Source: Nitrospiria bacterium
Lineage (GTDB): Bacteria > Nitrospirota > Nitrospiria > JACQBZ01
DNA: 51,413 bases
Direction: 5' to 3'
NCBI GenBank assembly: GCA_035517655.1
Contig: DATIYJ010000022.1
Coordinates: forward strand, 1 to 51,413
Part shown: positions 17,668 to 34,297 of the stretch, piece after piece
Layout: the number at the start of each line of letters is the position of its first letter
Position numbering within the stretch: position 1 is the first letter of the stretch
Notes under the pieces: model-generated
Told to the model about the DNA's origin: nothing
Databases searched by the model: none
Seen by the model: only the letters and a program-made list of their open reading frames with translations
Made by a program: the position numbers and the translations under genes

Positions 17668-17685
17668 GGAGACCTCCTCTTAGGC

Positions 17686-18099
17686 CTAATGTCCCAAAAC
17701 AAATTTATCGACCCGCAGTTCCTTTTCTCCCGCTGGACCTTGCAGCACCACGCGGTCTTCTAATATATCGGTGATCTGTTTTCCATCAATCTTATCACCC
17801 TTGCGCAAAATCTTGTTGTTGATAATCGCCACGCCCCGGCCCGATCGATAGATAATTGCGCTCAGATGGAGCTCTCCATTCGCTTCCGACCCCACGGCGT
17901 TCGTTCGGCCGGGAAGCACAAAGGGATCCCTGCCCCACTGCAAGGCTTTCTCCTGGCGTTCCAGCCACTGCGTATTAATCTCGGATAGCGGTTGAGCTCT
18001 GAGAAACGCAGGGGTAAGGAATAAAAGGCAAAGAATAAAAAACGGGAACAGAATAATAAAAGACACGGCCATTTTCATCTTATTCCTCTTGCTCTTCAC
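17686..18099 (-). CDS. pilP: Type IV pilus inner-membrane lipoprotein-like PilP
   Basis: 137 aa. An N-terminal hydrophobic segment (about 10-34) is followed by a short linker and the PilP/GspC-like beta domain, with WGRDPFVLP and LRKGDKIDGKQITDILEDRVVL. It links the PilNO inner-membrane complex to the secretin. Cysteine 24 lies inside the hydrophobic segment but is not in a clear lipobox. The start is GTG in a GTGA overlap with the pilO stop, so translation is coupled. Identification rests on both sequence and gene order. Confidence 0.9.
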   Translation of the reverse strand: MKSKRNKMKMAVSFIILFPFFILCLLFLTPAFLRAQPLSEINTQWLERQEKALQWGRDPFVLPGRTNAVGSEANGELHLSAIIYRSGRGVAIINNKILRKGDKIDGKQITDILEDRVVLQGPAGEKELRVDKFVLGH

Positions 18100-18686
18100 T
18101 CTTTTCCCAAATACGTTATCGTTTTCAAATGCGCCAAGACGGACGGGCTGATGTCGGTTCGTGTTTCGACTTTGATCTCCTTTACGACCACGGCTCGCGG
18201 CAAGTTCTCCAACATGAGCAGATAATCTCCCAGTTCGCGAAACCGCGACTGGACGTCGATCTGGAGCGTGAGCTGGAGATAGGCCCCTTTATCCTCGATG
18301 GAATCCGGACGAATCGAAACAAACTCGATCTGCCGGAGACGGGCCAGCCGGGTCATCTCTTCCAGCAACTCCGACAGGCGGCTTCCTCCCGGGAAAAGAT
18401 CCCCCGCTTTCCCCGCCAGCTCGGCACTGGTCTCTTTCCCCTGAGCCGATTGCCGAAGCTCGTCGGCCCGCTTCCGGAGCAAGGGAATCTGCGCCGTTCC
18501 CTGATCCATTTCGGCTTTGAGAGAAACTTTCTGCGCCGACAGATCTTTGGCGCTCCGGACCATCGGAGCGACGAAATACCCGAAATAAATGAATACAACG
18601 GCGGCGATGGTCAAAATCGCGAGAGCGCGCTCGCGCATCGAGAGCTTGGTCAGGTCAAGCTTTGCAAGATAATCGTTCAGAGGCAC
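18096..18686 (-). CDS. pilO: Type IV pilus assembly protein PilO
   Basis: 196-aa inner-membrane protein: cytoplasmic N-terminus, one transmembrane helix (about 22-42), a coiled coil (about 45-85), and a ferredoxin-like periplasmic domain. LSELLEEMTRLARLRQIEF and FRELGDYLLMLENLPRAVVVKEIKVE are typical PilO segments. It partners PilN and PilP in the alignment complex. It sits 13 nt after pilN and overlaps pilP by 4 bp. Confidence 0.94.
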   Translation of the reverse strand: MPLNDYLAKLDLTKLSMRERALAILTIAAVVFIYFGYFVAPMVRSAKDLSAQKVSLKAEMDQGTAQIPLLRKRADELRQSAQGKETSAELAGKAGDLFPGGSRLSELLEEMTRLARLRQIEFVSIRPDSIEDKGAYLQLTLQIDVQSRFRELGDYLLMLENLPRAVVVKEIKVETRTDISPSVLAHLKTITYLGKE

Positions 18687-18699
18687 AATTTTCTCTGCG

Positions 18700-19299
18700 T
18701 TAGTGTAAACTCGCCGTCAACTCAAAACTCATGCCTTGCGCGCCCTCTCCGGGTTCTTTTTGAGCGTAGATCAATGAAACATACCCGTAACGGGGAGAGT
18801 GTTCGAGAGCCGCAATAAACCGGTTGATGGCGGCCTGGGACTGAGCCATGCCGGCAAAATGAAGTCCGGCTTCCGTTGACGGAGGCATAAATCCTCCGGA
18901 CTTCGAATCCGTGCTTTCCAGGCGCGTCAGCCAGACATCGTCCGGAACAAGGAGGCTCACTTCCCGCACAACATCCGACCAAAGGATGCGGTTCTTCAGA
19001 AGGTCCCTCATGGCCGCGAGCTGCTCCGCCGCGACCCCTTGCCCTGCCTGCGCCCCCGCCGACAAGCTTGCAATCTCTCCATTGAGCCGGGCCAACTCTT
19101 GCTGAGTCTTGTCCCGCTGAATCGTGAGCTCCTGAACTTCTTTTTTCATCGTGCTAACTTTCCACCAATAGCCTAAAGAAAAAACGACCAAGACGACGGC
19201 GCCGGTGGCCACGCTCACCGGAATGGCCCTCTGTTTGAAGGAAAAAGGTTTCTCCTCAAATAGAATCTCCGGCGCGATCAAATTGATATAAGATTTCAT
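18700..19299 (-). CDS. pilN: Type IV pilus assembly protein PilN
   Basis: 199-aa inner-membrane protein. The N-terminal SYINLIAPE matches the short PilM-binding motif (INLLP-like). One transmembrane helix (about 27-47) is followed by a coiled coil (about 50-85) and a periplasmic ferredoxin-like domain with ILWSDVVREVSLLVPDDVWL. It connects the PilM ring with PilO and PilP. It lies between pilM (30-nt gap) and pilO. Confidence 0.94.
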   Translation of the reverse strand: MKSYINLIAPEILFEEKPFSFKQRAIPVSVATGAVVLVVFSLGYWWKVSTMKKEVQELTIQRDKTQQELARLNGEIASLSAGAQAGQGVAAEQLAAMRDLLKNRILWSDVVREVSLLVPDDVWLTRLESTDSKSGGFMPPSTEAGLHFAGMAQSQAAINRFIAALEHSPRYGYVSLIYAQKEPGEGAQGMSFELTASLH

Positions 19300-19329
19300 T
19301 GATATCTCACGATCAAGGATCCCGTCGCC

Positions 19330-20442
19330 TCATGCGTCCGTCGTTCTCAAGGCCAGTCCCACACCGGTCGAGAATCGGGGTGCCAACAGCCGGATCTCCC
19401 GGAAGGCCGATTCCTCGCAGATTATTTCGGCAAACGGATCGTCCAATTCCACATTGGCATCGAAATAGGACGCGAAGTATTCCTGGAATCCGGGCATGAG
19501 GCCGACGCCGCCCATCAACACGATCTTTTTGACCGACCCCTCGCGGAACTGGGCCCGGTAGTAATCCATGGAGCGTTGTGTTTCCAGGACCATCCGGTCC
19601 ACCTCGGCCTTGATGATTTCGAGCCGCCGGCCGTCTTGATCCTTGGAGGGCGCGGCGGCTCCTTCGCTGGGCTTGGCGCCGGAGAGTCCCTTGTCCCGCT
19701 TCAGTTGTTCCGCTTCTTCCCGTTCGATCCCCAACCCCTGCGCGATGGCCCGGGTGATTTCCTGGCCTCCGAGCTGAACATTCCGCGTGAACCGCAAGAC
19801 GCCCCGCTTCGAGATATTGATATCCATTTTTTCGGCGCCGATATCCACAAAGACGAGGTTTTCATCCAGGTCCGATTTGTAATTCAATTTGACGGTATTG
19901 AAGAGCGCCAGCGGATTCACGTCCATCGCCGTAATCGGCAGGTTGATCCTCTTGAAGGCCCCGAGTTGGTTCATCACGGCGGCCCGTTCGGTCGCGACCA
20001 GCAACACCTCGGTTCGCTTGAGGTCGCGCTCCTGGACTTCTCCGACAACGAGATAATCCAGAACGGCATCCTCGACCGGAAACGGGATCAGTTTCTTGGC
20101 CTCCCATCGGACCGCCTCCGCCAACTCATCCTTGGGCATCTTCGGCAGCAAAATGTACCGGATGATGGGGTTGCGCCCGCCGAAATTGATCGCGATCTTT
20201 TGTCGTTTGAGCCGGCCTTCTTTAAAAACGTCATGAAGGGCCAAGGGGGCGCTCTCCTCCGGACCCGGTTGAGCGCTTGGGTCGGCGGGCGGGAGCTCGG
20301 TCAGCCCGGCATGCTTTAGAACGAGACCCTTTCGCGTGGAAGCCAGATGAACGACCTTGATCGCGCTCCGGCCGATGTCCAACCCCAGAAGATGCCGCTT
20401 CGGCATGACCCAGGAAAGCAAAGACGATCCCATCTTCTTCAC
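19330..20442 (-). CDS. pilM: Type IV pilus assembly ATPase-fold protein PilM
   Basis: 370-aa cytoplasmic actin/FtsA-like protein that forms the cytoplasmic collar of the pilus machine by binding the PilN N-terminus. The nucleotide-binding phosphate-1 segment LLGLDIGRSAIKVVHL is near residue 18, VFVDIGAEKMDINI near 215, and VLMGGVGLMPGFQEYF near 310. An insertion rich in charged and small residues (about 255-280) precedes the last subdomain. It follows the MerR-type gene by 13 nt. Confidence 0.95.
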   Translation of the reverse strand: MKKMGSSLLSWVMPKRHLLGLDIGRSAIKVVHLASTRKGLVLKHAGLTELPPADPSAQPGPEESAPLALHDVFKEGRLKRQKIAINFGGRNPIIRYILLPKMPKDELAEAVRWEAKKLIPFPVEDAVLDYLVVGEVQERDLKRTEVLLVATERAAVMNQLGAFKRINLPITAMDVNPLALFNTVKLNYKSDLDENLVFVDIGAEKMDINISKRGVLRFTRNVQLGGQEITRAIAQGLGIEREEAEQLKRDKGLSGAKPSEGAAAPSKDQDGRRLEIIKAEVDRMVLETQRSMDYYRAQFREGSVKKIVLMGGVGLMPGFQEYFASYFDANVELDDPFAEIICEESAFREIRLLAPRFSTGVGLALRTTDA

Positions 20443-21159: not shown

Positions 21160-22926
21160 TCATGGAAAATCCTCACGAGTGGCGCCCGTATTATTCGAGT
21201 TCGGACCCGGACTTCCCGAGTTGAACGCGTTCACGGTGACATCCGTTGTCCGAGTGACGGAGGCATTGTTCGTATCGGTGATTGTAATCTGAAAGGTGCT
21301 TGTCCCCGTCGAGGAAGGCGTCGTCGGAAAGACCAGATTGAACGTGCCGTCCTTGGGGGAGATCCCGACAAGCGGGAGCACATTCGTGCTTGCGCTGGGA
21401 GGCAAGATCGTCGCGGTAAAGACGACGGGATTGGTGCCGGAAACCGTCCATATATCCTCGATCGGGTCGATCGGATTCGTGCCCGGATTGGGCGGATTGT
21501 ACTGCTCGATCATCGAATAGCTGTCCGTATCCGGCAGCCCCCAGCCCGCGGGGGCCGTGATCTGGACCTGTTTCGCGTCGGCGCAGCCGTTGTTCGTAAT
21601 GGACCAGGTCATTTCCTGGTCGGTGCTGTTGGCATTGATGCTGGTAGGATTCACCTGGGGCGTGAAACCTCCGAATTTGACCGTGTTGGAATTCACCGTC
21701 TGTGTGCCGACCGGCGTCCCGGACCCGCCGGTCTGCTCCGTCCCGTTGGCCGAGCCGGTAAAGTAGAAAGTCGAGCCGGATGGGCTGCCGGTGATCTGAT
21801 AGACCCAGACGAAGTTGAAGGTGCCGCCGCCGGACGGCACGGGACCATTCGGCGCCGCCGGAGTCGGTCCGGAAACCAGCGTGACCTGCCCCCCAACCGA
21901 CACTACAAGCGCCGAGGGCGTGACATTGATGATGTTTTGCGAAAAATTGTTCGTGAGCGTCATTGTCACGGTCAGATTTGCATTGAAATAACCGCAGGTC
22001 GGTGAGGTTGCGGGCGAGGTCGTCACCGCGATACCCGCGTTAAACTGACCCATCGCCAGCGTGGGCGAAGTGGCCATGATGGAAGTGGCCGAGTTGACGC
22101 TGTTTCTCGCAAAAGCTGTGAAATAGATCGTTCCCGAATCGGTCGCATTCGTGCTGTAGGTAAATGTAATCGTCCCGGAGGCCCCCGAAGCCAGGGTCAA
22201 GGGGTTGGGACTGTACACCGTCGATGTCAGAGCTTGTGTCACGGTGCCCGTCTTTACGGCCGTGGGCGGATTCGGATTCGTGGTAATCGTGGACAGGGTG
22301 GCCGTGGAGCGATTGGCGACGGTCATCACGAGCCTGAAGCTGGCGCCGGGGGTGAGCGTGGAGATCGGAGTCCCGGACAGGTCCGTAATGATGAAGCTGG
22401 TGACCTCGAGCGACTTGAGCGTCCACGAGCCGATGCTCGTTCCTGAATTTAATGTGACACTCGTTAGGTTGGTGAACGGGGGACCGGTCGTCGTGGTGGT
22501 ATAATACGCACGGACATCTCTCAAGTGCTGGGTGACATCGGCCGAGGAATAGCCGGCCGTCATCAGAATGACGAAATTCAGATTACTACCCACCGCAATC
22601 GCATTGGCCCAACTGCTGGCCCGGAAGGTAACCGATGTCGTCGAGTAGGCCGTGCGCGTCCAGCCGGCCGGCGGCGCGATCGTCGATGGAAAGGTCGTGT
22701 TGTAGGTGTTCAAGCGGAACCGGACCTGGTAGATTCGGGCTCCGGTATTCGGATTGGTGTTGGTGTTGGTAATGAGAAAATTGGCCGTGACGGCACTTCT
22801 CATGGTGTACTGAACCGGTGTCGGGTCGGTCTGGGCCGACGTGTAGCTGTAGGCTGCCTCGGCCGAGGTCTGCCACATCCCGAGAAGGACCCCCGTCATG
22901 GCGAACGTTATCCATTTTATCTTCAT
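21160..22926 (-). CDS. Large exported Thr/Ser/Asn-rich protein in the minor-pilin cluster
   Basis: 588 aa. The signal peptide is residues 1-23 (cut near AEA-AYS). The mature part is a chain of beta-sandwich-like segments rich in Thr, Ser, Asn and Gly, in the style of CARDB/DUF11 domains (for example FRLVMTVANRSTATLSTI and LTVTMTLTNNFSQNIINVTP). Only two mature cysteines are seen (CGYFNA, NGCADA). No LPxTG, PEP-CTERM or membrane anchor is evident. ATG at 22926 begins the signal peptide; the longer frame upstream is not coding. It follows four minor pseudopilins, so it may be a pilus-tip or pilus-exported adhesin, which is inference. Confidence 0.75.
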   Translation of the reverse strand: MKIKWITFAMTGVLLGMWQTSAEAAYSYTSAQTDPTPVQYTMRSAVTANFLITNTNTNPNTGARIYQVRFRLNTYNTTFPSTIAPPAGWTRTAYSTTSVTFRASSWANAIAVGSNLNFVILMTAGYSSADVTQHLRDVRAYYTTTTTGPPFTNLTSVTLNSGTSIGSWTLKSLEVTSFIITDLSGTPISTLTPGASFRLVMTVANRSTATLSTITTNPNPPTAVKTGTVTQALTSTVYSPNPLTLASGASGTITFTYSTNATDSGTIYFTAFARNSVNSATSIMATSPTLAMGQFNAGIAVTTSPATSPTCGYFNANLTVTMTLTNNFSQNIINVTPSALVVSVGGQVTLVSGPTPAAPNGPVPSGGGTFNFVWVYQITGSPSGSTFYFTGSANGTEQTGGSGTPVGTQTVNSNTVKFGGFTPQVNPTSINANSTDQEMTWSITNNGCADAKQVQITAPAGWGLPDTDSYSMIEQYNPPNPGTNPIDPIEDIWTVSGTNPVVFTATILPPSASTNVLPLVGISPKDGTFNLVFPTTPSSTGTSTFQITITDTNNASVTRTTDVTVNAFNSGSPGPNSNNTGATREDFP

Positions 22927-22943
22927 CCGAGCACCCGCTTTCG

Positions 22944-23900
22944 TTAACGTTGGACCGTCCTCCGAATCACGCGGTTGGCGTTTCCCACCACGGCCACCGG
23001 GGTCGTCCCGGTCGAGACGATCTCGGCCTCGTAATTCGGAGGGTTGGTAGGATCGTCGTACAGGATCGGGGCGACCGGCGCCCCGGCCGCTTGGCTGGCG
23101 GATGAGCTCCCATCCTGGCATCGTCTGACCCCGTACAGCGTCATGTTCACTCCCGACCGAACCGAACCGGTATAGGTGAGCTGCTCCCAATCGACCGGAT
23201 TGGGTGAGAAAGCCGTAATGATCGCAATGGACCCGGCTGTGAGAAATTTGGAATTATCCGCGATTGTTAGTGAGGCCAACGATGTACAATTATTCGCGAG
23301 GCCACCGGCCAGAGTGGTAACCGGATAAACCAACTCTCCACGTTCATGGGAGCCAGCCGTGGAGGTGACTCCGCCGACGGGTCGGCCTCGCGTAATTCCG
23401 GTGAACTGGGCGCAGATGCCGGAACTACTGATGCCGGTGTATTGAACATACTCAAAGGGATCCATCCCGACGTCCCCGATCATCAAGTAGCCGCTTGTCG
23501 GAAAGCGGTCCGTGGTGTAAACACAGATGGGCGAGGTTGTGGCGCTGTTCGGAATCCGTCGGCGCAACTTGGTCGCAGGCAAGTTGGTGCTGACGGTAAA
23601 GCTCGCGGCATTGGGAGCCGAGCCCAGCGTTCGAGTGGAGGACGTCATGGGGTCCGACGTGCTCCGGTACCAATCCACGTTTTGCGCCAGGTTGTATTGT
23701 TCGAACTCGATCCCTCCGTCCGCGATCCCGAAGGCCAATAAACCGGCTGACTGGTTCATGGCCGTGAAGCTTTCGTTGCTCACGAGCGAAATCAGGGCCG
23801 CGCCGATCAGGGCGACGACCACCAGGATCAGGATGACGAAGATGAGGCTGGCGCCGCGTTGAGGGTCGTTCATAATAAGATGTCTTCTCTCGTTTTCCAT
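22944..23900 (-). CDS. PilX-like minor pilus protein
   Basis: 318 aa. The N-terminus has a PilX-type hydrophobic helix right after a short leader (RGASLIFVILILVVVALIG), followed by a long extracytoplasmic domain with FTAMNQSAGLLAFGIADGG, the usual PilX segment. ATG at 23900 overlaps the stop of the previous gene (TGATG) and has GGAG 7 nt upstream; a second ATG at 23873 would also give a leader-like start. It lacks the Glu at +5 of true pilins, as PilX proteins often do. It is co-transcribed with the three preceding pseudopilin genes. Confidence 0.82.
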   Translation of the reverse strand: MENERRHLIMNDPQRGASLIFVILILVVVALIGAALISLVSNESFTAMNQSAGLLAFGIADGGIEFEQYNLAQNVDWYRSTSDPMTSSTRTLGSAPNAASFTVSTNLPATKLRRRIPNSATTSPICVYTTDRFPTSGYLMIGDVGMDPFEYVQYTGISSSGICAQFTGITRGRPVGGVTSTAGSHERGELVYPVTTLAGGLANNCTSLASLTIADNSKFLTAGSIAIITAFSPNPVDWEQLTYTGSVRSGVNMTLYGVRRCQDGSSSASQAAGAPVAPILYDDPTNPPNYEAEIVSTGTTPVAVVGNANRVIRRTVQR

Positions 23901-24397
23901 CAGAAGCTCCGAGGGTGAACGCGGGAACGGAACTGGACCGCCCCCGATCCGGTGCCCACCGTGAGGGCGATCTGGACCCACCAGATATCCGTCGCGGCCG
24001 GGGATACGGCCGGCGTGGCGATCGTCGCCCCGGTGTTGTCCAGATAGGTGAAGGTCAGACTCGAAACGTTCGCGGCCAGGGTGTCGGTCGTTGCAGTGAC
24101 GCGATTGAGGTTCGTCCCCGACAGTGTATAGCTGATCGTGTTGTTGCTTGTATCGACAAACGTAAAGGTGGTCGCGCCGGCCGTGTTGACGCTCGTGTTA
24201 TTCGCCACGTTTCGAATCTCGCGGATCATTCGGTCCATCGCGATCCGGTTCACTTGCGTCCCCTCGCGGACGTTGGTCCCGGTCAGGACGCTTTCGCTTG
24301 AGTAGAGAAAGGCCCGGGCCGCAACGATTCCGATGATCCCGATCAGGATGACCGAAAAAATCAGCTCGATCAATGTCACGCCGCGCTCGTTCCGCAT
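23900..24397 (-). CDS. PilW/GspJ-like minor pseudopilin
   Basis: 165 aa. A class III leader with GVTLIEL (cleavage after Gly, Glu at +5) is followed by one hydrophobic helix and VNRIAMDRMIREIRN, a pattern typical of the PilW/GspJ group. The C-terminal domain is Thr/Asn rich. It is predicted to be processed by the PilD peptidase and to sit in the pilus tip complex with its neighbours. It overlaps the next gene by 1 nt and follows the PilV-like gene by 7 nt. Confidence 0.86.
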   Translation of the reverse strand: MRNERGVTLIELIFSVILIGIIGIVAARAFLYSSESVLTGTNVREGTQVNRIAMDRMIREIRNVANNTSVNTAGATTFTFVDTSNNTISYTLSGTNLNRVTATTDTLAANVSSLTFTYLDNTGATIATPAVSPAATDIWWVQIALTVGTGSGAVQFRSRVHPRSF

Positions 24398-24404
24398 GCA
24401 TCCT

Positions 24405-24824
24405 CTAATGATTCGTAACCAGCGAGACCAACACGGCGGCCGGCACGCTCGGCCCGACGCCCGACGCCTGGACCGTGACCTGGACCTGCTTGTAATCGGT
24501 CGGACAGGCCGCCGTCGTGGTCAGGGCATTGTTCGTAAAACAGGTGATCGTCACACTTCGATTATATTTTGTGAACCCGGTCACCGGATTCTCCGCCGGA
24601 TAATTGCCGGCGATAATATAGCCGAATCCGCGCCCCGGATTATTCCGGTCGCCCATGATCTCTTCCATTTTCTCCTGGGCCAGATCGGCCGCCGTCGTTG
24701 TTCCCACCGTATTCACCTGCCGGCTCGTCATGAAACCGACGGCCGAGATCAGACCCGGAATCGCGATCGCGAGGATCACGATGGTCAGAATCACTTCAAT
24801 CAATGTAAACCCTTTGGATCTCAT
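24405..24824 (-). CDS. PilV/GspI-like minor pseudopilin
   Basis: 139 aa, starting MRSKGFTLIEV with Glu at +5 and a strong hydrophobic helix. DLAQEKMEEIMGDRN after the helix is characteristic of PilV/GspI proteins. Two cysteines (TCFTNN and ACPTDY) could form a disulfide. ATG at 24824 is 5 nt after the stop of the FimT-like gene; the longer frame to 24989 is a shadow. It is part of the minor-pilin priming complex. Confidence 0.87.
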   Translation of the reverse strand: MRSKGFTLIEVILTIVILAIAIPGLISAVGFMTSRQVNTVGTTTAADLAQEKMEEIMGDRNNPGRGFGYIIAGNYPAENPVTGFTKYNRSVTITCFTNNALTTTAACPTDYKQVQVTVQASGVGPSVPAAVLVSLVTNH

Positions 24825-24829
24825 CGTCG

Positions 24830-25354
24830 TCAGTGGGTCAGATTGCCCGTGTTCTGTTGAATCGTAATCACGCGATTCCTTCCCGAATAATTCAAGATGA
24901 CGCTGCTCGTGCAGGTCAGGACGGTGCCGTTGGTGTCGGTCGGCGCCCCGATGCTGTTGAACTCCATGACGCCGCCGGCCCCCCCGCAAAAAGGCGTCGC
25001 CGAACTGAAGCGAACGCCGCTAAGCTGCCCCTGGCGGTAAGCATCAAAATTGACGACGAGCGTCGCCCCCAGACTCGACGGATCCGCGACGGGCACGTCC
25101 GGGTTCGGGGAAGCATCACGATAAATGGTGTACCCGGCCGTCGAAGTGATCGTGATCCCGTGCCGGCTCTGCGTGCTGACGGCCAGTTGCTGTGCATAGC
25201 GCAGATCGCCCACGACCTTGTTCACGGCCTGATCGAGCCTGCTGTCCGAGAGGCTGGAAAGGCTGAGCGACACGACGGCGCCCAGGATGAGCACAATCAG
25301 GATGGTCAGGACCAATTCGATCAGCGTGAAGCCGTTCCCGTCCTTGCCCGCCAT
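24830..25354 (-). CDS. FimT/GspH-like minor pseudopilin
   Basis: 174 aa with leader MAGKDGNGFTLIEL (Glu at +5), a hydrophobic helix, and LVGDLRYAQQLAV-like text (VVGDLRYAQQLAVSTQSRHG), the family hallmark of GspH/FimT. A cysteine pair (FCGG, LTCTS) lies in the C-terminal beta domain. GGGAG is just upstream of the ATG. It is the first of four consecutive minor pseudopilins and follows the TMTC-like gene by 29 nt. Confidence 0.88.
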   Translation of the reverse strand: MAGKDGNGFTLIELVLTILIVLILGAVVSLSLSSLSDSRLDQAVNKVVGDLRYAQQLAVSTQSRHGITITSTAGYTIYRDASPNPDVPVADPSSLGATLVVNFDAYRQGQLSGVRFSSATPFCGGAGGVMEFNSIGAPTDTNGTVLTCTSSVILNYSGRNRVITIQQNTGNLTH

Positions 25355-25383: not shown

Positions 25384-27420
25384 TTATGGGCGTTCCCGGA
25401 CCCGATTATTCCGGATTTCGGCGGCGCGGGCTTCCATTCTTTCGGCTTCGACATCCTGTTTCGTTTTTCTCAATAAATCGGCGTAATCCTCCAGGGTCGT
25501 CGCCAGTTCCGGGTTTTCCGGTCCCAGGGTTTTCTCCCAGATCGCCAACGATTGCCGGTAGAGCGGCCCGGCTTCGTCGTACCGGGCCTGATTGCGGTAG
25601 AGATCGGCCAAAGCCCGCAGGCTGAAGGCCACGGCGGGATGATCCGTCCCCCATTCTTCTTCCCGAATGGCCAACGAACGACGATAAAGCGGCTCGGCGT
25701 CCGCATACCGGCCTTGCGCCTCATAGAGTTTGGCCAAGTTGTAGAGACCCTTGGCCAGTTCCGGACTCGGCGTCGTTCCCATCATTCCAATGGCTTGGCG
25801 ATAGAGCAACTCGGCCTCGTTGTACCGCTTCCGGTTCGAGTAAAGCATGGCAAGATTGTGAAGCGCGATGATGAAATAGCTCGCATTCGACGCCGGAGTC
25901 CGCTGCCAGATCAGGATCGCGTCCCGATAGAGCGGCTCGGCCTCGTCGGACCTTCCCTGGGCGGCGTAGAGCTCCGCGAGATAGAGAAATCCCGACGCTT
26001 GAGCATCTTGTCCTTCGCCGTTCTTGGCCAGGGCGATGGCCCGGTGGTAGAGGCGCTCGGCCTCGGCGTAGCGTCCCAGGATGGTATATTGCGCTCCCAG
26101 TCCCAAGTACGGAAGACTGGTCGCGGGCGACGACGCCACGGCCGCCTCCCAAAAAACCACGGGACTCCGCCAGACGGCGTTCCGGCTCCAGCTCTCCCTT
26201 CCCCCGGCCGCCACGATCGCAATGACGATGAGGCCGGCCGTTACCCAGACCTTGGCCCGTAGCCCCTCCGCGGCGGCCGCAAGCCGCTCAAGACCTTGCA
26301 TCGCCAGCCCGGTGCCGGCCATCAAGAATCCAACAGACGGGATATAGACATAGCGCTCCGCCAAGGGAGTGATCGCGATGCCGAAGACGCCCGCCAAAAC
26401 AGCCGGGCCAAGAAAAATAAGAGCCCATCCCAGGCCGAACGACAATACGACCGCGCGACGAATGAGCGCCCAGAGGAAGAGACCCGACAACATAACGCAC
26501 GCCAGAACGGCGAGCTTCAAGAAGAGAGAAGAGGCCGTAAAAGAGACGATGAAGGGGTGGAGCGGATAGGGGAACAACATCAGCCTGAGGTAAAAACTTA
26601 AAACCGTGATCAGGCCCAAAACAGCTTCGAACGGAAAGAGTTCCTGCACGGCGAGACCGCCGCCCGGGTTTGAAATACCCGAACGCCGCATCCAAAAATA
26701 AACGCCCAGGATCAGCAACGGCGCCAGCCAGCGAACCGCGTTCCGCCGGGACAAGAGCTTGGGCCCGGAAAGATAATCGTAGAGCATGAATAACGGGAAC
26801 AATCCCACCGCCGTTTCTTTGGTCAGAAGCGCGAGGATGAATGCGAACATGGAGGAACTGAAAAACCACCTGCTTCCGCCGCGGCCGGATCGGATGTAGA
26901 GCAGCATCGAGAGGAGAATAAACGTCGCGCAGAACACATCGCTGCGGCCCGCGATCCAGGCAACGGCCTCGGCATGGGCCGGATGGACGGCAAAAAGAGA
27001 GGAGACCAGAAGCGGAAAACTTGTATAGGGGGACGGCGTGGCCTGACGGGCCGTGATTACTTTCGCCAGGAAAAAAACCAAGGCGGTGTTGAGAATATGG
27101 GCGAACCAGATCGAAAAATGATAACCGAAGGGGTTGTAGCCCCAAAGAGAAAAATCCAGAAGGTACGACAGATTGACGACGGGGCGATAATAGGCCGTCG
27201 ATGGCTTGAGAGCCGGCGCGATCAGCTGATCGGTCAGAAACCGGCTCCAGCCGTCGACCGGCGAACCAAGATTCGGGACGATTTGTTCATCATCCAGGCC
27301 CAGGCCGTTGGCCAGCACGTTGAGGTTCGCCAACAGGGCCAGGAGCACCGGAACAGCCCACAGCCACCGGTCATGCTCACCCCTTTCCAACGCTCGTTTC
27401 GCGGCATCGAGTGTCAGCAT
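25384..27420 (-). CDS. TMTC-like (GT105-type) membrane glycosyltransferase with TPR repeats
   Basis: 678 aa. The N-terminal 400 residues form about ten transmembrane helices with motifs of the TMTC O-mannosyltransferases: acidic pair in the first loop (GLDDEQIVPN), YYRPVVNLSYLLD, NPFGYHFSIWFAHILN, FAVHPAHAEAVAWIAGRSD, and LLTKETAVGLFP. From about residue 425 on there are some six tetratricopeptide repeats with the text QGRYADAEPLYRRSLAI, kinesin-light-chain style. Relatives attach mannose to secreted proteins from a lipid-linked donor. It lies between the major pilin and the minor pilins on the same strand, so pilins or the exported Thr-rich protein are candidate acceptors (inference). No strong ribosome site precedes the ATG. 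Confidence 0.82.
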   Translation of the reverse strand: MLTLDAAKRALERGEHDRWLWAVPVLLALLANLNVLANGLGLDDEQIVPNLGSPVDGWSRFLTDQLIAPALKPSTAYYRPVVNLSYLLDFSLWGYNPFGYHFSIWFAHILNTALVFFLAKVITARQATPSPYTSFPLLVSSLFAVHPAHAEAVAWIAGRSDVFCATFILLSMLLYIRSGRGGSRWFFSSSMFAFILALLTKETAVGLFPLFMLYDYLSGPKLLSRRNAVRWLAPLLILGVYFWMRRSGISNPGGGLAVQELFPFEAVLGLITVLSFYLRLMLFPYPLHPFIVSFTASSLFLKLAVLACVMLSGLFLWALIRRAVVLSFGLGWALIFLGPAVLAGVFGIAITPLAERYVYIPSVGFLMAGTGLAMQGLERLAAAAEGLRAKVWVTAGLIVIAIVAAGGRESWSRNAVWRSPVVFWEAAVASSPATSLPYLGLGAQYTILGRYAEAERLYHRAIALAKNGEGQDAQASGFLYLAELYAAQGRSDEAEPLYRDAILIWQRTPASNASYFIIALHNLAMLYSNRKRYNEAELLYRQAIGMMGTTPSPELAKGLYNLAKLYEAQGRYADAEPLYRRSLAIREEEWGTDHPAVAFSLRALADLYRNQARYDEAGPLYRQSLAIWEKTLGPENPELATTLEDYADLLRKTKQDVEAERMEARAAEIRNNRVRERP

Positions 27421-27485: not shown

Positions 27486-27515
27486 CGCAGGGAGAGGAGG
27501 CCTCCTCTCCCTGCG
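27486..27515 (-). terminator. Perfect 30-nt palindrome downstream of the major pilin gene
   Basis: Two 15-nt arms are exactly complementary with no spacer. It lies 82 nt after the pilin stop. On the minus strand an eight-A run (TTTTTTTT on plus) lies beyond it rather than a U-tract, so it is more likely an mRNA-stabilising or attenuating hairpin than a simple terminator. Confidence 0.5.
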
Positions 27516-27596: not shown

Positions 27597-28037
27597 TTAA
27601 CAATTGGTCTTCGTCGCCAAAGTCAAAGCCCCCGTCAATCCGTTATAACTCGCCTGGGCGCCGCGGCCGGACCCTCCGCAAGACGTGGCGGCCGCATTGC
27701 AGGTTAAGTTGCCGCCGGCGCAGATTCCAAAGGTGTCCGGACTGCCGCCGGAGAACGCGGAGGTAACGACCCCGCTGCCGCTGAGACTGACCAATGTGAA
27801 TACGTTCGAATAAAAGGTTCCGGCCGCGCCGGTCGTGGGCAGGGCCTTCAAGCTGTTAATGGCCAACGCCAGCTGGGCGTTGAACTGGCCGAAGGTGCCG
27901 TCAATGGCCGCGTTTTTGGAGTCCGTGAGGATGGTCCCGAACTGGACCATCGCCACGGCGCCGAGAATTCCCAAGATGACAATGATCAGGACCAGCTCGA
28001 TCAGCGTGAACCCTTTTTCATTCTTCAGCATCTTCAT
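27597..28037 (-). CDS. pilA: Type IV major pilin
   Basis: 146 aa with the class III leader MKMLKNEKGFTLIEL (cleavage after Gly, Phe +1, Glu +5) and a long hydrophobic helix (LVLIIVILGILGAVAMVQF). The C-terminal domain has cysteines at ICAGG, LTCNA, SCGGS and the terminal KTNC, able to form a disulfide loop like classic pilins. ATG at 28037 is chosen because AAGGAG lies 7 nt upstream; the longer frame to 28184 is not coding. It sits just after the atypical prepilin and downstream of the sigma-54-type promoter. The designation as major pilin is by position and structure. Confidence 0.88.
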   Translation of the reverse strand: MKMLKNEKGFTLIELVLIIVILGILGAVAMVQFGTILTDSKNAAIDGTFGQFNAQLALAINSLKALPTTGAAGTFYSNVFTLVSLSGSGVVTSAFSGGSPDTFGICAGGNLTCNAAATSCGGSGRGAQASYNGLTGALTLATKTNC

Positions 28038-28128
28038 GCGCTCTCTCCTTTGTTTTGATGACGGTTGATGGATCGACGATCGACCTCGGCTGTCCGAACC
28101 GGAATCTCCATCTTTCAAGAGCTGTCGA

Positions 28129-28521
28129 TCACCATTTCTCGTACCCCTTCGTTGTCGAATAAACGCGCCCGTTCGAAGGATCATATCCGAAGGGGTTTCC
28201 GAACGGATCGACGGGATTGCCGGATTCGTCCAACGCCTTGGTTTTCAAATACTGGTCCGTAAAGAGGGTTCCTTCTTTGATGGGGAGCGTATAATGTTCC
28301 CGCATCAGATCCTTCAAGTCGGCCGGAATTTTCTGTCGGGTGAGCACGTACACCTGAACCGCCTTTCGAAGGTTCCCCAGCGAGATCTGCAGGGCCGCCT
28401 CCCGCGCGGCCTGGGCCATCCGTTGGTACTTCGGAATCAGCACTCCGATAAAGATCGAGATCAGGACCACAACGATCAGCGTATCAATGATACCGAGGCC
28501 CTGTTCCCCTTTGAGCCGCAT
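28129..28521 (-). CDS. Atypical prepilin-like protein (Asp at +5)
   Basis: 130 aa. A short leader (MRLKGEQG) is followed by LGIIDTLIVVVLISIFIGVLI, so the expected Glu at +5 is Asp and the Phe at +1 is Leu. After the helix come GNLRKAVQVYVLTRQKIPADLKDL and a Gly/Pro-rich tail with DPFGNPFGYD, a pattern of GspG-like pseudopilins. It lies immediately downstream of a -24/-12 promoter and 91 nt upstream of the major pilin. It may be a minor pilin or a pilin-like regulator of assembly. Confidence 0.8.
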   Translation of the reverse strand: MRLKGEQGLGIIDTLIVVVLISIFIGVLIPKYQRMAQAAREAALQISLGNLRKAVQVYVLTRQKIPADLKDLMREHYTLPIKEGTLFTDQYLKTKALDESGNPVDPFGNPFGYDPSNGRVYSTTKGYEKW

Positions 28522-28694: not shown

Positions 28695-30062
28695 TTACCC
28701 AAGTCCGTATTTCTTCATTTTGTTGTAGAGATGCTTCCGGCTGATGCCCAAACGCTTCGCGGCCGCGCTTCGATGGTCCTGTTCATCGGTCAGCGCCTGT
28801 TCGATTAATTTTTTCTCGATGTCCGAACTGACCCGTTCCAAATGGTCGCGAAGGCGGCCGTTGCCCATCGGTTCGGACGGCATCGTGGCCGGCGGCTGAA
28901 CGGCGTCCTGAAGATCATCGAGATCAAGAACATCGGCCTCGGCCAGGACGACCGCCCGCTGAATAACGTTCTCAAGCTCCCGGACATTCCCCGGCCACCG
29001 TTGACGAAGCAGCCAGGTCAGGGCCGGCTCGCCGATCCGACCGACACGGCGATTGAATTTTTTCGCATACAGCTTGAGAAAGGCTTCCGCCAGAACCGGG
29101 ATATCTTCCAACCGCTCCCGGAGGGGGGGCAGATGAATATTCACGACGTTCAGGCGGAAGAACAGGTCCTCGCGAAAACGGCCGGCCTTTACGGCCTCGC
29201 TCAAATCCCGATTCGTTGCGGCGATGATCCGAATGTCCACCGGAATGGGCTTGATCCCGCCGACGCGTTCAATCTCGCGTTCCTGCAGCACGCGAAGGAT
29301 CTTGGCCTGCATGCCCGTCGCCATCTCGCTCACTTCATCCAAAAACAGGGTTCCTTCATGGGCCGACTCGAATTTTCCCAGCCGTTGCTGGTAGGCCCCG
29401 GTGAAGGACCCCTTTTCATGTCCGAACAACTCGGCCTCTAGCAAACTCTCCGGGATGCTGGCGCAGTTCACGGTGAGAAACGGCCGGGCCCGGCGAGGAC
29501 TCCGCCGATGGATGGACCGGGCCACCAATTCTTTGCCCGTCCCGCTCTCGCCGGTAACCAGCACGGTGACATCGCTGTCGGCCACTTTATGGATCAGGTC
29601 GAAAACCTTCCGCATGGCCGGGCTCTCCCCCAACATCGCCGATGTTTCCTCGCCCCAGTGACGGTTCAGTCGCCGGACTTCCTCTTGGAGGCGACAACGT
29701 TCCACGGCCCGTTTAATCACGATTCGCATCTCATTCAGATCGAACGGCTTCGTAAAATAGTCATAGGCCCCTTTCTGCAAGGTCTCGATCGCCACCTTTT
29801 TGGAACCGAACGCCGTCATGAGGATCACCACAAGTTCCGGATCAAACTCTTTCATCTTGTCCAGCGCGAGCAGGCCGTTGAGCCGGGGCATTTTGATGTC
29901 CATCAGGACGATCTTAAACTGCCCGGACTTCAATTTCTCAAGGGCCTCCCATCCGTCCGAGGCCGTCGCGAAGGAGTAGCCTTCCTTTTTCAAGGCCTCG
30001 CTCAGGAAAAAGCGAAGGGCCTCTTCATCGTCGACAATCAGGATTTGCGGTGAAAGTTCCAT
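28695..30062 (-). CDS. Sigma-54-dependent response regulator (PilR-like)
   Basis: 455 aa of NtrC layout. The receiver domain (1-120) has the phospho-acceptor Asp in VLMDIKMP near residue 55 and the acidic pocket VDDEE. The AAA+ domain (about 140-370) has Walker A GESGTGKE, the sigma-54 contact loop as GSFTGA (a common variant of GAFTGA), and Walker B LFLDEV. A Fis-type HTH (about 415-455, AAKRLGISRKHLYNKMKKYG) ends the protein. It is preceded 44 nt upstream by a histidine kinase gene and followed by a sigma-54-type promoter for the pilins, as in PilS-PilR systems. Confidence 0.94.
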   Translation of the reverse strand: MELSPQILIVDDEEALRFFLSEALKKEGYSFATASDGWEALEKLKSGQFKIVLMDIKMPRLNGLLALDKMKEFDPELVVILMTAFGSKKVAIETLQKGAYDYFTKPFDLNEMRIVIKRAVERCRLQEEVRRLNRHWGEETSAMLGESPAMRKVFDLIHKVADSDVTVLVTGESGTGKELVARSIHRRSPRRARPFLTVNCASIPESLLEAELFGHEKGSFTGAYQQRLGKFESAHEGTLFLDEVSEMATGMQAKILRVLQEREIERVGGIKPIPVDIRIIAATNRDLSEAVKAGRFREDLFFRLNVVNIHLPPLRERLEDIPVLAEAFLKLYAKKFNRRVGRIGEPALTWLLRQRWPGNVRELENVIQRAVVLAEADVLDLDDLQDAVQPPATMPSEPMGNGRLRDHLERVSSDIEKKLIEQALTDEQDHRSAAAKRLGISRKHLYNKMKKYGLG

Positions 30063-30106
30063 TCAACGCTCATGATCGGGCGGACGCCACCCGTCCCGAT
30101 GGCGAA

Positions 30107-31255
30107 TTATTTGACCGGCAACTCGATCGCGAAGACCGTCTCCCCGTTGCCGCTTTCAACCTCGATCGTCCCGCCTTGCGCGGTCACGACCTGGTGCGTA
30201 ATGGCCAGGCCCAGACCGGTTCCGCCTTCCTTGGTGGTATAAAACGGATCGAAGATCCGCTTGTAGTCGTCGGGCGGAATCGTCGAATCCGTATTCGCGA
30301 TCTTGATCGACACCCGGCGCGCCCTGGAAGGGTCCGGACCGGCTTGCACCGCCGTTTTCACCCGAACCGTTCCCGCATTCGGAATCGCCTGCACGGCATT
30401 CCGAAGCACGTTTAAAACGGCCTGGAGCATCGCCTCCCGGTCCAGCAGGATTTCGGAGATCCGCGGATCATACTCCTGAAGGATGGTAATCTGTTTTGTG
30501 TTTCTTTCATAGCCGCACAGCTCAACGGCGTCGTGAACCAACCGGTTCAGATCCACTTTTTCGATCAGACCGCTGGCCGGGCGGGCGAGCCGCAAGAGGC
30601 GCTCCACCACCCTGTCCAGCCGGTTCACTTCCCCCACGATCGTCTCGGCATACTTCTGCTCCGACGGCGAATCGGCGGATTCTTGCAGAAGTTGAGCCAA
30701 TCCTTTAACCGCCCCCAAGGGGTTTCGGATCTCGTGCGCCACGCCGGCCGCAAGCGTTCCCAGTGCCGCCAGGCGTTCCGTTCGCTGGAGTTGTTCCTGC
30801 ATCGCCAGTTTGGAAACCATCTGATTGAAGTCCCGCCCGAGGTAGGCGAACTCCTCCGTCAAATCCAACCGGAGGTTTGTCCGGAAGTCTCCGATCGTGA
30901 CACGGTTGATCGCTTCCTGAAGCCGTTTCATCGGCTGAACCAGGGCGTACGAAATGAACAACCCGACCACCAAGGCCACCAGCCCGCTGAGGAGAAAGAC
31001 GGGTATGATGCCGGTGATGGCGCTGTGAAATTCGGTCATTCCCGCGATTCGGCCGGAGGCTTCCGCGGAGAGGACGGCCCTGGAGATCAGATACACCGAG
31101 ATGTAAGTCGGCGCGAGTGAAAATAAGATCAGGAAAAAGGGGATGAAAAAAAAGAGGCTGAGTTGAACGTGGCGTTTAAAGAGAAAGGAGGACAGCCCAT
31201 GATCAAGACCGTCACCGGGCTGCACGAATTTAGCCACCGCCGCCTTTGAAGACAT
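30107..31255 (-). CDS. Sensor histidine kinase (PilS-like position)
   Basis: 382 aa. Two transmembrane helices (about 30-54 and 82-106) flank a short periplasmic part, followed by a HAMP domain, a HisKA domain with the phospho-His in GVAHEIRNPLGAVKG near residue 175, and a HATPase_c domain with N-box LNVLRNAVQAIP and G-box GTGLGLAI. It lacks the six-helix input region of classic PilS, so the signal may differ. It overlaps the pilC stop by 26 bp; an in-frame GTG at 31237 would shorten the overlap. It is paired with the sigma-54 response regulator. Confidence 0.93.
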   Translation of the reverse strand: MSSKAAVAKFVQPGDGLDHGLSSFLFKRHVQLSLFFFIPFFLILFSLAPTYISVYLISRAVLSAEASGRIAGMTEFHSAITGIIPVFLLSGLVALVVGLFISYALVQPMKRLQEAINRVTIGDFRTNLRLDLTEEFAYLGRDFNQMVSKLAMQEQLQRTERLAALGTLAAGVAHEIRNPLGAVKGLAQLLQESADSPSEQKYAETIVGEVNRLDRVVERLLRLARPASGLIEKVDLNRLVHDAVELCGYERNTKQITILQEYDPRISEILLDREAMLQAVLNVLRNAVQAIPNAGTVRVKTAVQAGPDPSRARRVSIKIANTDSTIPPDDYKRIFDPFYTTKEGGTGLGLAITHQVVTAQGGTIEVESGNGETVFAIELPVK

Positions 31256-32453
31256 TGATCAGGTTCCACCAGGGCATGAAGATGGCCAGGGCCAGAAACA
31301 GGACGACCCCGCCGATGACCGCCAGCAACAGCGGCTCCAGGGAGGTGGACAGGTTTCGAATGGAATACTCCACCTCTTGATCGTAATATTCCGACACCTT
31401 CATCAGCATCTCTTCCATCTTTCCGGTCTGCTCGCCGATGGAGACCATCTGGATCACCACCGGCGGAAAAATGCGGCTGACCTGCATGGGCTGGACGATG
31501 CCGCGGCCCTGCCGTGCGCTGTCCCGAATGTTGTCCACCACGCGGGAAATGACGGTATTCCCGACCGTCTGAGAAACGATCTCGAGGGTTTGCAGGATCG
31601 AAAGCCCGCTGCGGGTCAAGGTTCCGAAGACGCGGGCGAACCGGGAAAGGGCCGTCTTCAGAAAGATGGTTCCAAAAACCGGCAGTTTAATCTTCACTCC
31701 GTCCCACCAAAGCCGGCCCGCTTCCGTCCGGACGTAGGTCCGCGTCGAAAAAGTGACCGAGACGATGACCGCCAAGATAAGCCACCAATAGCTCTGGAAC
31801 CCGTTGTTGATTCCGATGAGGATGCGGGTCGGCAGCGGCAGTTGGGCTTTAAAACTGGCATAGAGGGCCGCAAACCGAGGAATCACAAACTGCAATAAAA
31901 TGATGAACGCAATCACCAAGGCTCCGATCACGATCTTGGGATAACGGGTGGCGGCCTTGATCCGGGCGCGGGTCGTGGCCTCATGCTCCGCAAGGGTCGC
32001 CAGACGTTGCAGAATCTCATCCAGCACGCCCCCGGTCTCGCCGGCGCGGATCATGCTCACGTAGAGGTTGCTGAACACCGACGGATGTTTTGCGAGGGCG
32101 TCCGAAAAGGAGCTGCCGCCTTCCACATCCTTGCGAACCTGCACGATCACATCCTTCAGCCGTTTGTTCTCGGTCTGCTCAATCAGGGCATCGAAGCTGG
32201 ACATAAAAGGCAGGCCGGCCGAGATCAGCGTGGCGAGCTGTCTTGAAAAGATGATCAGGGCCTCGGGAGAAACGCGCGTGAAGCGGTCCAAAACATCGGC
32301 CACCCCAAGTTTTTTCCGCATCTCCTCAATCGAAACGGGGTGATAGCCGAGATGGTCCAACTGAGTGGCCACGGCGTCCCGGCTGGAGGTCTCGATCGTG
32401 CCGGTGGACAAAGAGCCGTATTTATCCCGTGCGCGGTACTGGAAAACCGGCAT
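31230..32453 (-). CDS. pilC: Type IV pilus inner-membrane platform protein PilC
   Basis: 407-aa polytopic inner-membrane protein with two GspF domains (about 70-195 and 275-395) and three transmembrane helices (near 170, 215 and 380). Typical text includes FSRQLATLISAGLPF, YVSMIRAGETGGVLDEIL and VQMVSIGEQTGKMEEML. It is the platform rotated by PilB. ATG at 32453 lies 1 nt after the pilB stop; the 50-residue in-frame extension overlaps pilB and is not coding. Confidence 0.95.
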   Translation of the reverse strand: MPVFQYRARDKYGSLSTGTIETSSRDAVATQLDHLGYHPVSIEEMRKKLGVADVLDRFTRVSPEALIIFSRQLATLISAGLPFMSSFDALIEQTENKRLKDVIVQVRKDVEGGSSFSDALAKHPSVFSNLYVSMIRAGETGGVLDEILQRLATLAEHEATTRARIKAATRYPKIVIGALVIAFIILLQFVIPRFAALYASFKAQLPLPTRILIGINNGFQSYWWLILAVIVSVTFSTRTYVRTEAGRLWWDGVKIKLPVFGTIFLKTALSRFARVFGTLTRSGLSILQTLEIVSQTVGNTVISRVVDNIRDSARQGRGIVQPMQVSRIFPPVVIQMVSIGEQTGKMEEMLMKVSEYYDQEVEYSIRNLSTSLEPLLLAVIGGVVLFLALAIFMPWWNLINVFKGGGG

Positions 32454-32454
32454 G

Positions 32455-34167
32455 CTACGCCTCGATTTCTTGAGTGACGCGCAAGACTTCCTCCAGCGTC
32501 GTAAGGCCTCTGACGGCGGCGGCCAGTCCTTGCAGACGCAACCCGACGAACCCGGACTGGACCGCTTGATTGCGGATCGTGCCGGAAGAGGCCTTGGCGA
32601 CAATCAGGTTTCGAATCGCCTCATCGACGGGAAGCAGCTCATAGATGCCGGCCCGGCCCAAATAGCCGGTATTCCGGCATTGCTGGCATCCGCTTCCCTT
32701 GACGAGATGGATCTCCTTTCGTCCGTCGAGGAGCTTCTCCAGGTTCAGGCTTTTGACCAGATCCGGAGTCGGCGTGAACGGACCCTTGCAATGGGCGCAG
32801 ACCTTTCGAACCAGCCGCTGGGCCATGACTCCGATCAAGGACGAGGCCACCAGAAACGGCTCGGCGCCCATGTCCAGAAGCCGGGCCATGGCGCCCGCCG
32901 CGTCGTTGGTGTGCAGCGTTGAGAAAACCAGATGGCCCGTCAGGGCCGCCTGGATCGCGATCGAGACCGTTTCGGTGTCCCGGATCTCGCCCACCATGAT
33001 CACGTTGGGGTCCTGCCGCAGAATGGAGCGCAGGCCGTTGGCGAACGTGATGCCCACCTTGGAATTCACCTGGACCTGGTTGATGTACTTGAGTTGATAT
33101 TCAACGGGGTCCTCGATCGTGATCACATTCTTTTCGATGGAATTGATGCGGTTCAACGCGGCGTAGAGCGTGGTGGTCTTCCCGCTCCCCGTCGGACCGG
33201 TGACGAGCAACAGGCCGTACGGCCGACGGATCATTTTTTCGAACTTTTTCAAATTGTCCGCCGAAAACCCCATCTCTTCCAGGCCGAGAAGGATGCTCCC
33301 CTTGTCGAGGAGCCGCATCACGAGCTTTTCGCCGAAGATCGTGGGGAGTGTGGACAGTCGGATGTCCACGTCCTTTTCGCCCACCTTCATCTGAATCCGG
33401 CCGTCCTGTGGAACCCGCTTCTCGGCGATGTCCAGATCGGCCATGATCTTGATGCGGGAAACGACGCCCGCTTGAAGGTTCCGCGGCGGGGTCATTACCT
33501 CCCGGAGCATCCCGTCGACCCGATAGCGGATGCGCAGCACCTCGGCGTCCGGTTCGATATGAATATCACTCGCGCCTTCCCGGACGGCCTGGGCGATCAT
33601 GGTGTTCACCAGCTTGATCATCGGCGTATCGTCCCCGATGCGCTGGAGATCGATCACCTGCTCTTCCGGCATCACGCCGTATCCCTGGATATCGGCCTCC
33701 TTCGCCGCCTCTTCCATGGTCGAGGTGGCGCTGTAGAAACGATCAATGGCCTTCATCACCTCGGATTCCGAACTCACAACCGGCTGGATCTCCATGCCGG
33801 TCGCCCGGCGGAGGTCGTCGATGGCAAAGACGTTGAGCGGATCGACCATGGCGAGGGTGAGAATCCGGTCCTTTTTGAAGACCGGGATGACTTGATGGCG
33901 ACGGGCCATCGTTTCCGGAATAATCTTGACGACATCCGGATCAATGATGATGCTGGAAAGCGTCACCGGCTGGATGCCCATCTGCTTCCCGAGCACTTTG
34001 ATGATGTCTTCCTCGGTGACGAAACCCATGCTCCGGAAGATGGTCCCGATCCGGCCGCCGTGGAGTTTCTGTTCGCTGAGCGCGCGCTCAAGCTGTTCGC
34101 GGCTGATCAACCCTTCCGCGATCAGCATTTCCCCCAGCATTTTCCGTTTCTGTTGCGGTAACGGCAT
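32455..34167 (-). CDS. pilB: Type IV pilus extension ATPase PilB with MshEN-type N-terminus
   Basis: 570-aa cytoplasmic hexameric ATPase that powers pilus extension. The N-terminal 65 residues contain two tandem MshEN-like units (LGEMLIAEGLISREQLERAL and RIGTIFRSMGFVTEEDIIKV), a fold that in relatives binds c-di-GMP. The ATPase core has Walker A GPTGSGKTTT, the Asp box, Walker B GEIRDTETV and His box TLHTND, plus a zinc tetracysteine (CAHC...CQQC). ATG at 34167 is chosen with AAGG 6 nt upstream; an in-frame start at 34218 is less likely. The retraction ATPase PilT is not nearby. Confidence 0.95.
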   Translation of the reverse strand: MPLPQQKRKMLGEMLIAEGLISREQLERALSEQKLHGGRIGTIFRSMGFVTEEDIIKVLGKQMGIQPVTLSSIIIDPDVVKIIPETMARRHQVIPVFKKDRILTLAMVDPLNVFAIDDLRRATGMEIQPVVSSESEVMKAIDRFYSATSTMEEAAKEADIQGYGVMPEEQVIDLQRIGDDTPMIKLVNTMIAQAVREGASDIHIEPDAEVLRIRYRVDGMLREVMTPPRNLQAGVVSRIKIMADLDIAEKRVPQDGRIQMKVGEKDVDIRLSTLPTIFGEKLVMRLLDKGSILLGLEEMGFSADNLKKFEKMIRRPYGLLLVTGPTGSGKTTTLYAALNRINSIEKNVITIEDPVEYQLKYINQVQVNSKVGITFANGLRSILRQDPNVIMVGEIRDTETVSIAIQAALTGHLVFSTLHTNDAAGAMARLLDMGAEPFLVASSLIGVMAQRLVRKVCAHCKGPFTPTPDLVKSLNLEKLLDGRKEIHLVKGSGCQQCRNTGYLGRAGIYELLPVDEAIRNLIVAKASSGTIRNQAVQSGFVGLRLQGLAAAVRGLTTLEEVLRVTQEIEA

Positions 34168-34297
34168 CGTCACCTTCCCCCCGGAGGGCCGTTCCAACGG
34201 ACCTGGAGCAACGGGCAAGAGTTTGGATTTAGATTTCTATCGTTTACTCGCTTTTAAAGAAAAGTCAAGCGAAACAAAAAGGTTCTGGCACTCAACT

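Follow-up and report, generated by a model that had tools for sequence, protein, structure and literature searches.

In the 51,413-nucleotide stretch of Nitrospiria DNA analysed here (hereafter the window; contig DATIYJ010000022.1 of assembly GCA_035517655.1), the gene that comes straight after pilA, the major pilin gene of a complete type IV pilus locus, encodes what structure models indicate is a GT-C fold glycosyltransferase with a TMTC-like architecture. We consider that this protein is probably, although not securely, a pilin-dedicated periplasmic O-glycosyltransferase, which together with the neighbouring pilA would make up a pilin-accessory cassette. Relatives of the window's own genome (G000) include two congeners (G001 and G002) and two other genera of the same family (G003 and G005). 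In the window, pilins were recognized by HMM, and PilB, PilC, PilM-Q, the sensor kinase and the NtrC-type regulator by gene order and by eye. The enzyme gene starts 177 bp after pilA and lies, as the earlier note had stated, between the major pilin and the minor pilins. All of these genes are on the minus strand. Its ORF is intact, with exactly the limits given there. In order of transcription, the features are as follows.

28695..34218, minus strand: NtrC-type regulator, sensor kinase, PilC and PilB; block conserved in relatives, named by sequence and order without HMM
28129..28521, minus strand: GspG-like pseudopilin upstream of pilA (TIGR01710, PF08334)
27597..28184, minus strand: pilA, major pilin (PF07963); the ORF begins upstream, the mature protein having 138 aa from GFTLIELVL
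27487..27514, minus strand: 28-nt perfect inverted repeat (hairpin) between the pilA stop and the enzyme start, seen in the sequence; attenuator-like, no U-run
25384..27420, minus strand: TMTC-like GT-C glycosyltransferase with C-terminal TPRs, 678 aa (ORF, TPR HMMs, AF2 models, Foldseek GT-C matches)
27289..27294, minus strand: DD motif, residues 43-44, of periplasmic loop 1; candidate site of the catalytic acid or metal, by conservation
26938..26985, minus strand: HPAHAEAVAWIAGRSD, residues 146-161, conserved core motif (H146 in 51/51 relatives, R159 in 49/51)
26353..26355, minus strand: Arg356 (AERY) just before TM10, at the position of the conserved TMTC/STT3 Arg (sequence; motif position from PMC7801869)
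26086..27420, minus strand: membrane GT-C domain, residues 1-445, predicted to have about 11 TM helices, a cytoplasmic N-terminus and a periplasmic C-terminus (AF2, loop charges, Foldseek)
25393..26118, minus strand: six TPR helix pairs, residues 435-676, kinesin-light-chain/NPHP3 type (HMMs, full-length AF2 model)
24830..25354, minus strand: GspH-like minor pilin, encoded next after the enzyme (PF07963, TIGR01708)
24405..24989, minus strand: PilV-like minor pilin (PF07963; TIGR02523 below cut-off)
23900..24397, minus strand: minor pilin (PF07963)
22944..23981, minus strand: PilX-like minor pilin (PF14341 just below cut-off)
21160..23190, minus strand: Thr-rich exported protein, from sequence; the ORF begins upstream of the true start
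16252..20442, minus strand: PilM, PilN, PilO, PilP and PilQ; conserved in G001, G002 and G005, named by sequence and order without HMM

The pseudopilin reads GLGIIDTLIV where GFTLIE is usual, with Asp in place of Glu, and its relatives show 79-84 % identity.

The two halves of the enzyme were identified by different means. The TPRs are certain in a Pfam profile search (PF13424, E=1e-40; PF24885, E=5e-44) and appear as six helix pairs in the full-length AF2 model, in line with the count of about six made from the sequence alone. The N-terminal 430 residues, on the other hand, have no Pfam match, although PF13231 (PMT_2) is matched by 11 of the 51 relatives (best 1.4e-9). As sequence searches of solved structures, with the single protein and with a profile, returned essentially TPR matches only, a fold search was needed. 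An AF2 model of the GT-C domain, built on the 51 relatives, has a pLDDT of 91 and a pTM of 0.92, and its top PDB matches in Foldseek are all GT-C proteins: STT3/OST, Pmt4, ArnT and PglB. These closest structures reach TM-scores (query) of about 0.46-0.52 at only 12-15 % identity, and carry soluble domains where the window enzyme has TPRs. AF2 helices, hydropathy and loop charge together predict the topology given above, with TPRs on the outer side and a TM7-TM8 loop at residues 247-297 that contains a helix.

All the motifs quoted in the earlier note are present, namely DD (residues 43-44), RPVVNLSY (from 79), NPFGYH (to 101), HPAHAEAVAWIAGR (146-159) and KE (201-202), and they are conserved over the 51 relatives. 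Among non-gapped rows of the alignment, D43 is kept in 35/39 and D44 in 38/42; R79 is found in 46/51 relatives, H101 in 49/51, K201 in 50/51 and E202 in 45/51. At R356, Arg occurs in 35/51 rows and is shifted by one position in the others. This conservation bears on the idea that the protein has no catalytic role and would serve pilin assembly as a GT-C/TPR scaffold or chaperone, comparable to the non-modifying accessories TfpX, TfpY and TfpZ. Non-enzymatic accessories indeed occupy the same position in Pseudomonas aeruginosa (PMC11841053), but with DD, R79, H146, R159, KE and R356 all intact and strongly conserved, we regard a mere scaffold as very improbable.

Whether the enzyme can be called a TMTC is a separate matter. 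The animal cadherin O-mannosyltransferases TMTC1-4 (CAZy GT105) share with it, as described in PMC7801869, a GT-C N-terminus with DD in the first outer loop and a FAVHP-type motif ending TM3. Human TMTCs are likewise portrayed there with a cytoplasmic N-terminus, about 11 TM helices, a helix in the TM7-TM8 loop, a conserved Arg before TM10 and TPRs on the outer side (the ER lumen, as against the periplasm predicted here), and the predicted topology of the window enzyme agrees with this. However, the window enzyme is bacterial, and the diagnostic TMTC profile PF08409 (TMTC_DUF1736), whose place is between TM7 and TM8, where the window enzyme does have a loop, matched neither the window protein nor any of the 51 relatives, with no match above cut-off in eight genomes. 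The TMTC/GT105 label is thus only partly earned: topology, DD, the pre-TM10 Arg and the C-terminal TPRs speak for it, while PF08409 does not. As there is no accepted PF08409 match, we dropped the GT105 assignment and call the enzyme TMTC-like. The protein type itself is not new, since full-length GT-C plus TPR homologues in prokaryotes, such as AMJ42_05695 of Deltaproteobacteria DG_8, were already reported in PMC7801869, and the window enzyme seems to belong with these numerous proteins. The part of that paper available gives neither a function nor a pilin linkage for the bacterial proteins, and a literature search for TMTC together with pilin found no paper.

The placement of the gene recurs beyond the window. 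The order pilB-pilC-sensor kinase-ntrC-pseudopilin-pilA-enzyme-gspH-pilV-minor pilin(-pilX) is common to the window and G003 (contig C75). The G005 locus is split over contigs C30 and C17, the latter carrying the end of the pseudopilin gene, pilA, the enzyme, gspH, pilV and a minor pilin, with pilM-Q farther along. The pilA-enzyme-gspH arrangement is thus found in three genera. In the congeners G001 (C58) and G002 (C5), by contrast, the pilus locus is kept but no enzyme lies between pilA and gspH. With three carriers and two non-carrier congeners, presence is patchy although the site is the same, so that the expected pilA-TMTC synteny holds in two other genera but is lacking in the two congeners. 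A test of whether the three pilus-locus copies form one clade did not reject a single clade (p-AU 0.25), but G005 was not firmly placed, and a single origin of the three copies therefore does not follow. The pilA genes that occupy equivalent places of the locus on the two G005 contigs (L043 and L049) differ from each other, suggesting that the bin probably mixes two strains and that C17 may come from a co-binned one; the pilA fragment on C30 is 97 % identical to G003 pilA over 62 residues. In G001, this stretch (C58; L042 4953-6505) has no match to the sensor kinase and NtrC regulator that relatives carry between pilC and the pseudopilin gene.

Identities among these loci suggest which neighbour the enzyme follows. 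In its mature form, the window's PilA shares 73 % identity with G003 PilA and only 47 and 51 % with the proteins of G001 and G002. For GspH, PilV and minJ, a minor pilin encoded downstream, the pattern is inverted, with 55-60 % between the window and G003 and 71-84 % between the window and the congeners. Among the carriers, GT-C domain identities of 64 % (G000-G003), 47 % (G003-G005) and 50 % (G000-G005) parallel those of PilA (73, 49 and 48 %, respectively) and not those of minJ (60, 85 and 58 %). The enzyme thus follows PilA rather than the genes behind it, in a small sample of three pairs among only three carriers, and by these sequence comparisons pilA and the enzyme gene appear to travel together. 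The Ser/Thr fraction of PilA, tried as a marker of glycosylation, was uninformative (0.24, 0.25 and 0.25 in carriers, 0.16 and 0.25 in non-carriers).

These comparisons also bear on the substrate. A glycosyltransferase of the pilus locus could act on the minor pilins or the Thr-rich exported protein instead of PilA, as four minor pilin genes and the Thr-rich ORF directly follow the enzyme gene in the same orientation, and the Thr-rich protein is by composition an obvious candidate for O-glycosylation. We find this rather improbable: the enzyme's similarity parallels that of PilA and not of GspH, PilV or minJ, and the minor pilins and relatives of the Thr-rich protein are retained in G001 and G002, which have no enzyme at the site. 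Nothing therefore ties the Thr-rich protein to the enzyme, and we rejected it as the partner, which the earlier note had offered beside the pilins. That note had proposed a dedicated glycosylation step, and for pilins the proposal fares better: recurrent placement in three genera and an enzyme that tracks PilA, not the minor pilins, favour it, although most paralogues lie away from pilins and some in polysaccharide clusters.

A similar layout is known from P. aeruginosa, where in the pilA-tfpO and pilA-tfpW cassettes the major pilin gene is followed at once by that of a glycosyltransferase, with a hairpin in between (PMC11841053). There, TfpO, which adds O-antigen units, and TfpW, which adds arabinofuranose homopolymers, are tied to pilin groups I and IV, and the terminator after the pilin gene in pilin-accessory cassettes has been proposed to attenuate the accessory gene (PMC11841053). 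The tie between accessory and pilin type is matched in the window's family over the three pairs. As described in that paper, TfpO and TfpW are not TMTC-like GT-C proteins with TPRs, which sets them apart from the window enzyme. The stem of the window recurs almost unchanged in G003 and in related form in G001 and G002, and G005 has another; a hairpin is therefore also present in the two non-carriers. The window hairpin is strong, but since it has no U-run and is not called a terminator, attenuation is something that we infer.

The enzyme belongs to a large family unevenly spread in the class, with 19 matches in G003, 16 in G011, 5-16 in several genomes and none in many. The window's own genome (2.65 Mb), whose nearest named relative is a groundwater Nitrospirae MAG (L033), has four, two of them cut by contig ends. 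In G003, a genome of 2.5 Mb, this family of membrane glycosyltransferases is unusually expanded. In many genomes of family f2 (seen among L080-L096 and further members of the class), the only copy has an open frame of about 470-490 aa, which leaves no room for a TPR domain of the usual size. Such proliferation suggests another reading, in which the enzyme comes from a surface-glycan GT-C family, one copy of which ended up in the pilus operon, and has lipid-linked glycans or many periplasmic proteins as its substrates, its linkage to pilA being accidental or only regulatory. Consistent with it, paralogues follow glycosyltransferase and sugar-nucleotide genes (partly named by eye) in G001, G002 and on contig C35 of G000, and only about 6 of 119 distinct relatives whose flanks were read adjoin pilin-like genes on the same strand. 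Yet one site is retained across three genera, the enzyme covaries with PilA, and there is another, separate pilin adjacency: in G003 (C58; L050), three clustered pilin genes are followed after 61 bp by a different paralogue, whereas the equivalent clusters of G000 (C7) and G005 (C77) have none. A rough count for G003 (about 16 pilin-flanking slots, 2,500 genes and 19 copies) gives 0.12 expected adjacencies against 2 seen; pilin adjacencies thus exceed chance by this count, the numbers being small. We hold the surface-glycan reading to be unlikely, though not negligible. Farther away, a pilin-like gene lies 170 bp ahead of a TMTC-like gene in Geobacter UBA4057 (L036), and two pilin-like genes follow one in G168 (L127).

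A donor gene linked to the enzyme gene was sought and none was found; a GT2 fused to a PIG-L-like deacetylase in the window's own genome (L152, named by eye) was set aside as too unspecific. A glycan cluster of G001 that holds two tandem TMTC-like genes (C55; L052 2778-3731) contains a UbiA-family prenyltransferase gene, which might point to a polyprenyl-phosphate sugar donor. GT2 genes that are related to one another occur at most a few kb away from distant TMTC-like paralogues (L127 2984-3676; G003:C73, G001:C4, G005:C61) and are possible donor synthases.

Returning to a pilin-dedicated O-glycosyltransferase, we can sketch how it might work, the fold, site residues, position and covariation having been computed, and the sugar, donor, acceptor residue and role of the TPRs being put forward on that basis. 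With the DD site of its first periplasmic loop, the enzyme would accept one sugar (mannose, arabinose or another) from a polyprenyl-phosphate-sugar donor and attach it to Ser or Thr in the head of PilA, before the pilin leaves its anchorage in the inner membrane. Specificity would come from the periplasmic TPR superhelix gripping the pilin head, and the hairpin would hold enzyme output far below that of the pilin. The glycan may change the surface properties of the pilus or mask it, as for TfpO and TfpW in P. aeruginosa. With 19 copies in G003 and most copies not near pilins, a pilin substrate is the best inference rather than a demonstration.

More generally, we advance tentatively, as a real possibility, that TMTC-like enzymes of the GT-C/TPR build form one more, so far undescribed, class of O-glycosyltransferases that are specific to a pilin type, move between bacteria as a unit with their pilA and read the pilin through their TPRs. 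Such a class would add to pilin glycosylation a kind outside those of PglL, TfpO and TfpW. Bacterial TMTC-like proteins are abundant, and in the literature searched none was found to have had its substrate assigned. A copy linked to a single pilin type offers a concrete, testable one, and would provide a bacterial system for studying how TPR domains select protein acceptors in TMTC-type enzymes. If this proves true, the animal cadherin mannosyltransferases would share a superfamily with bacterial enzymes that decorate adhesive surface fibres.
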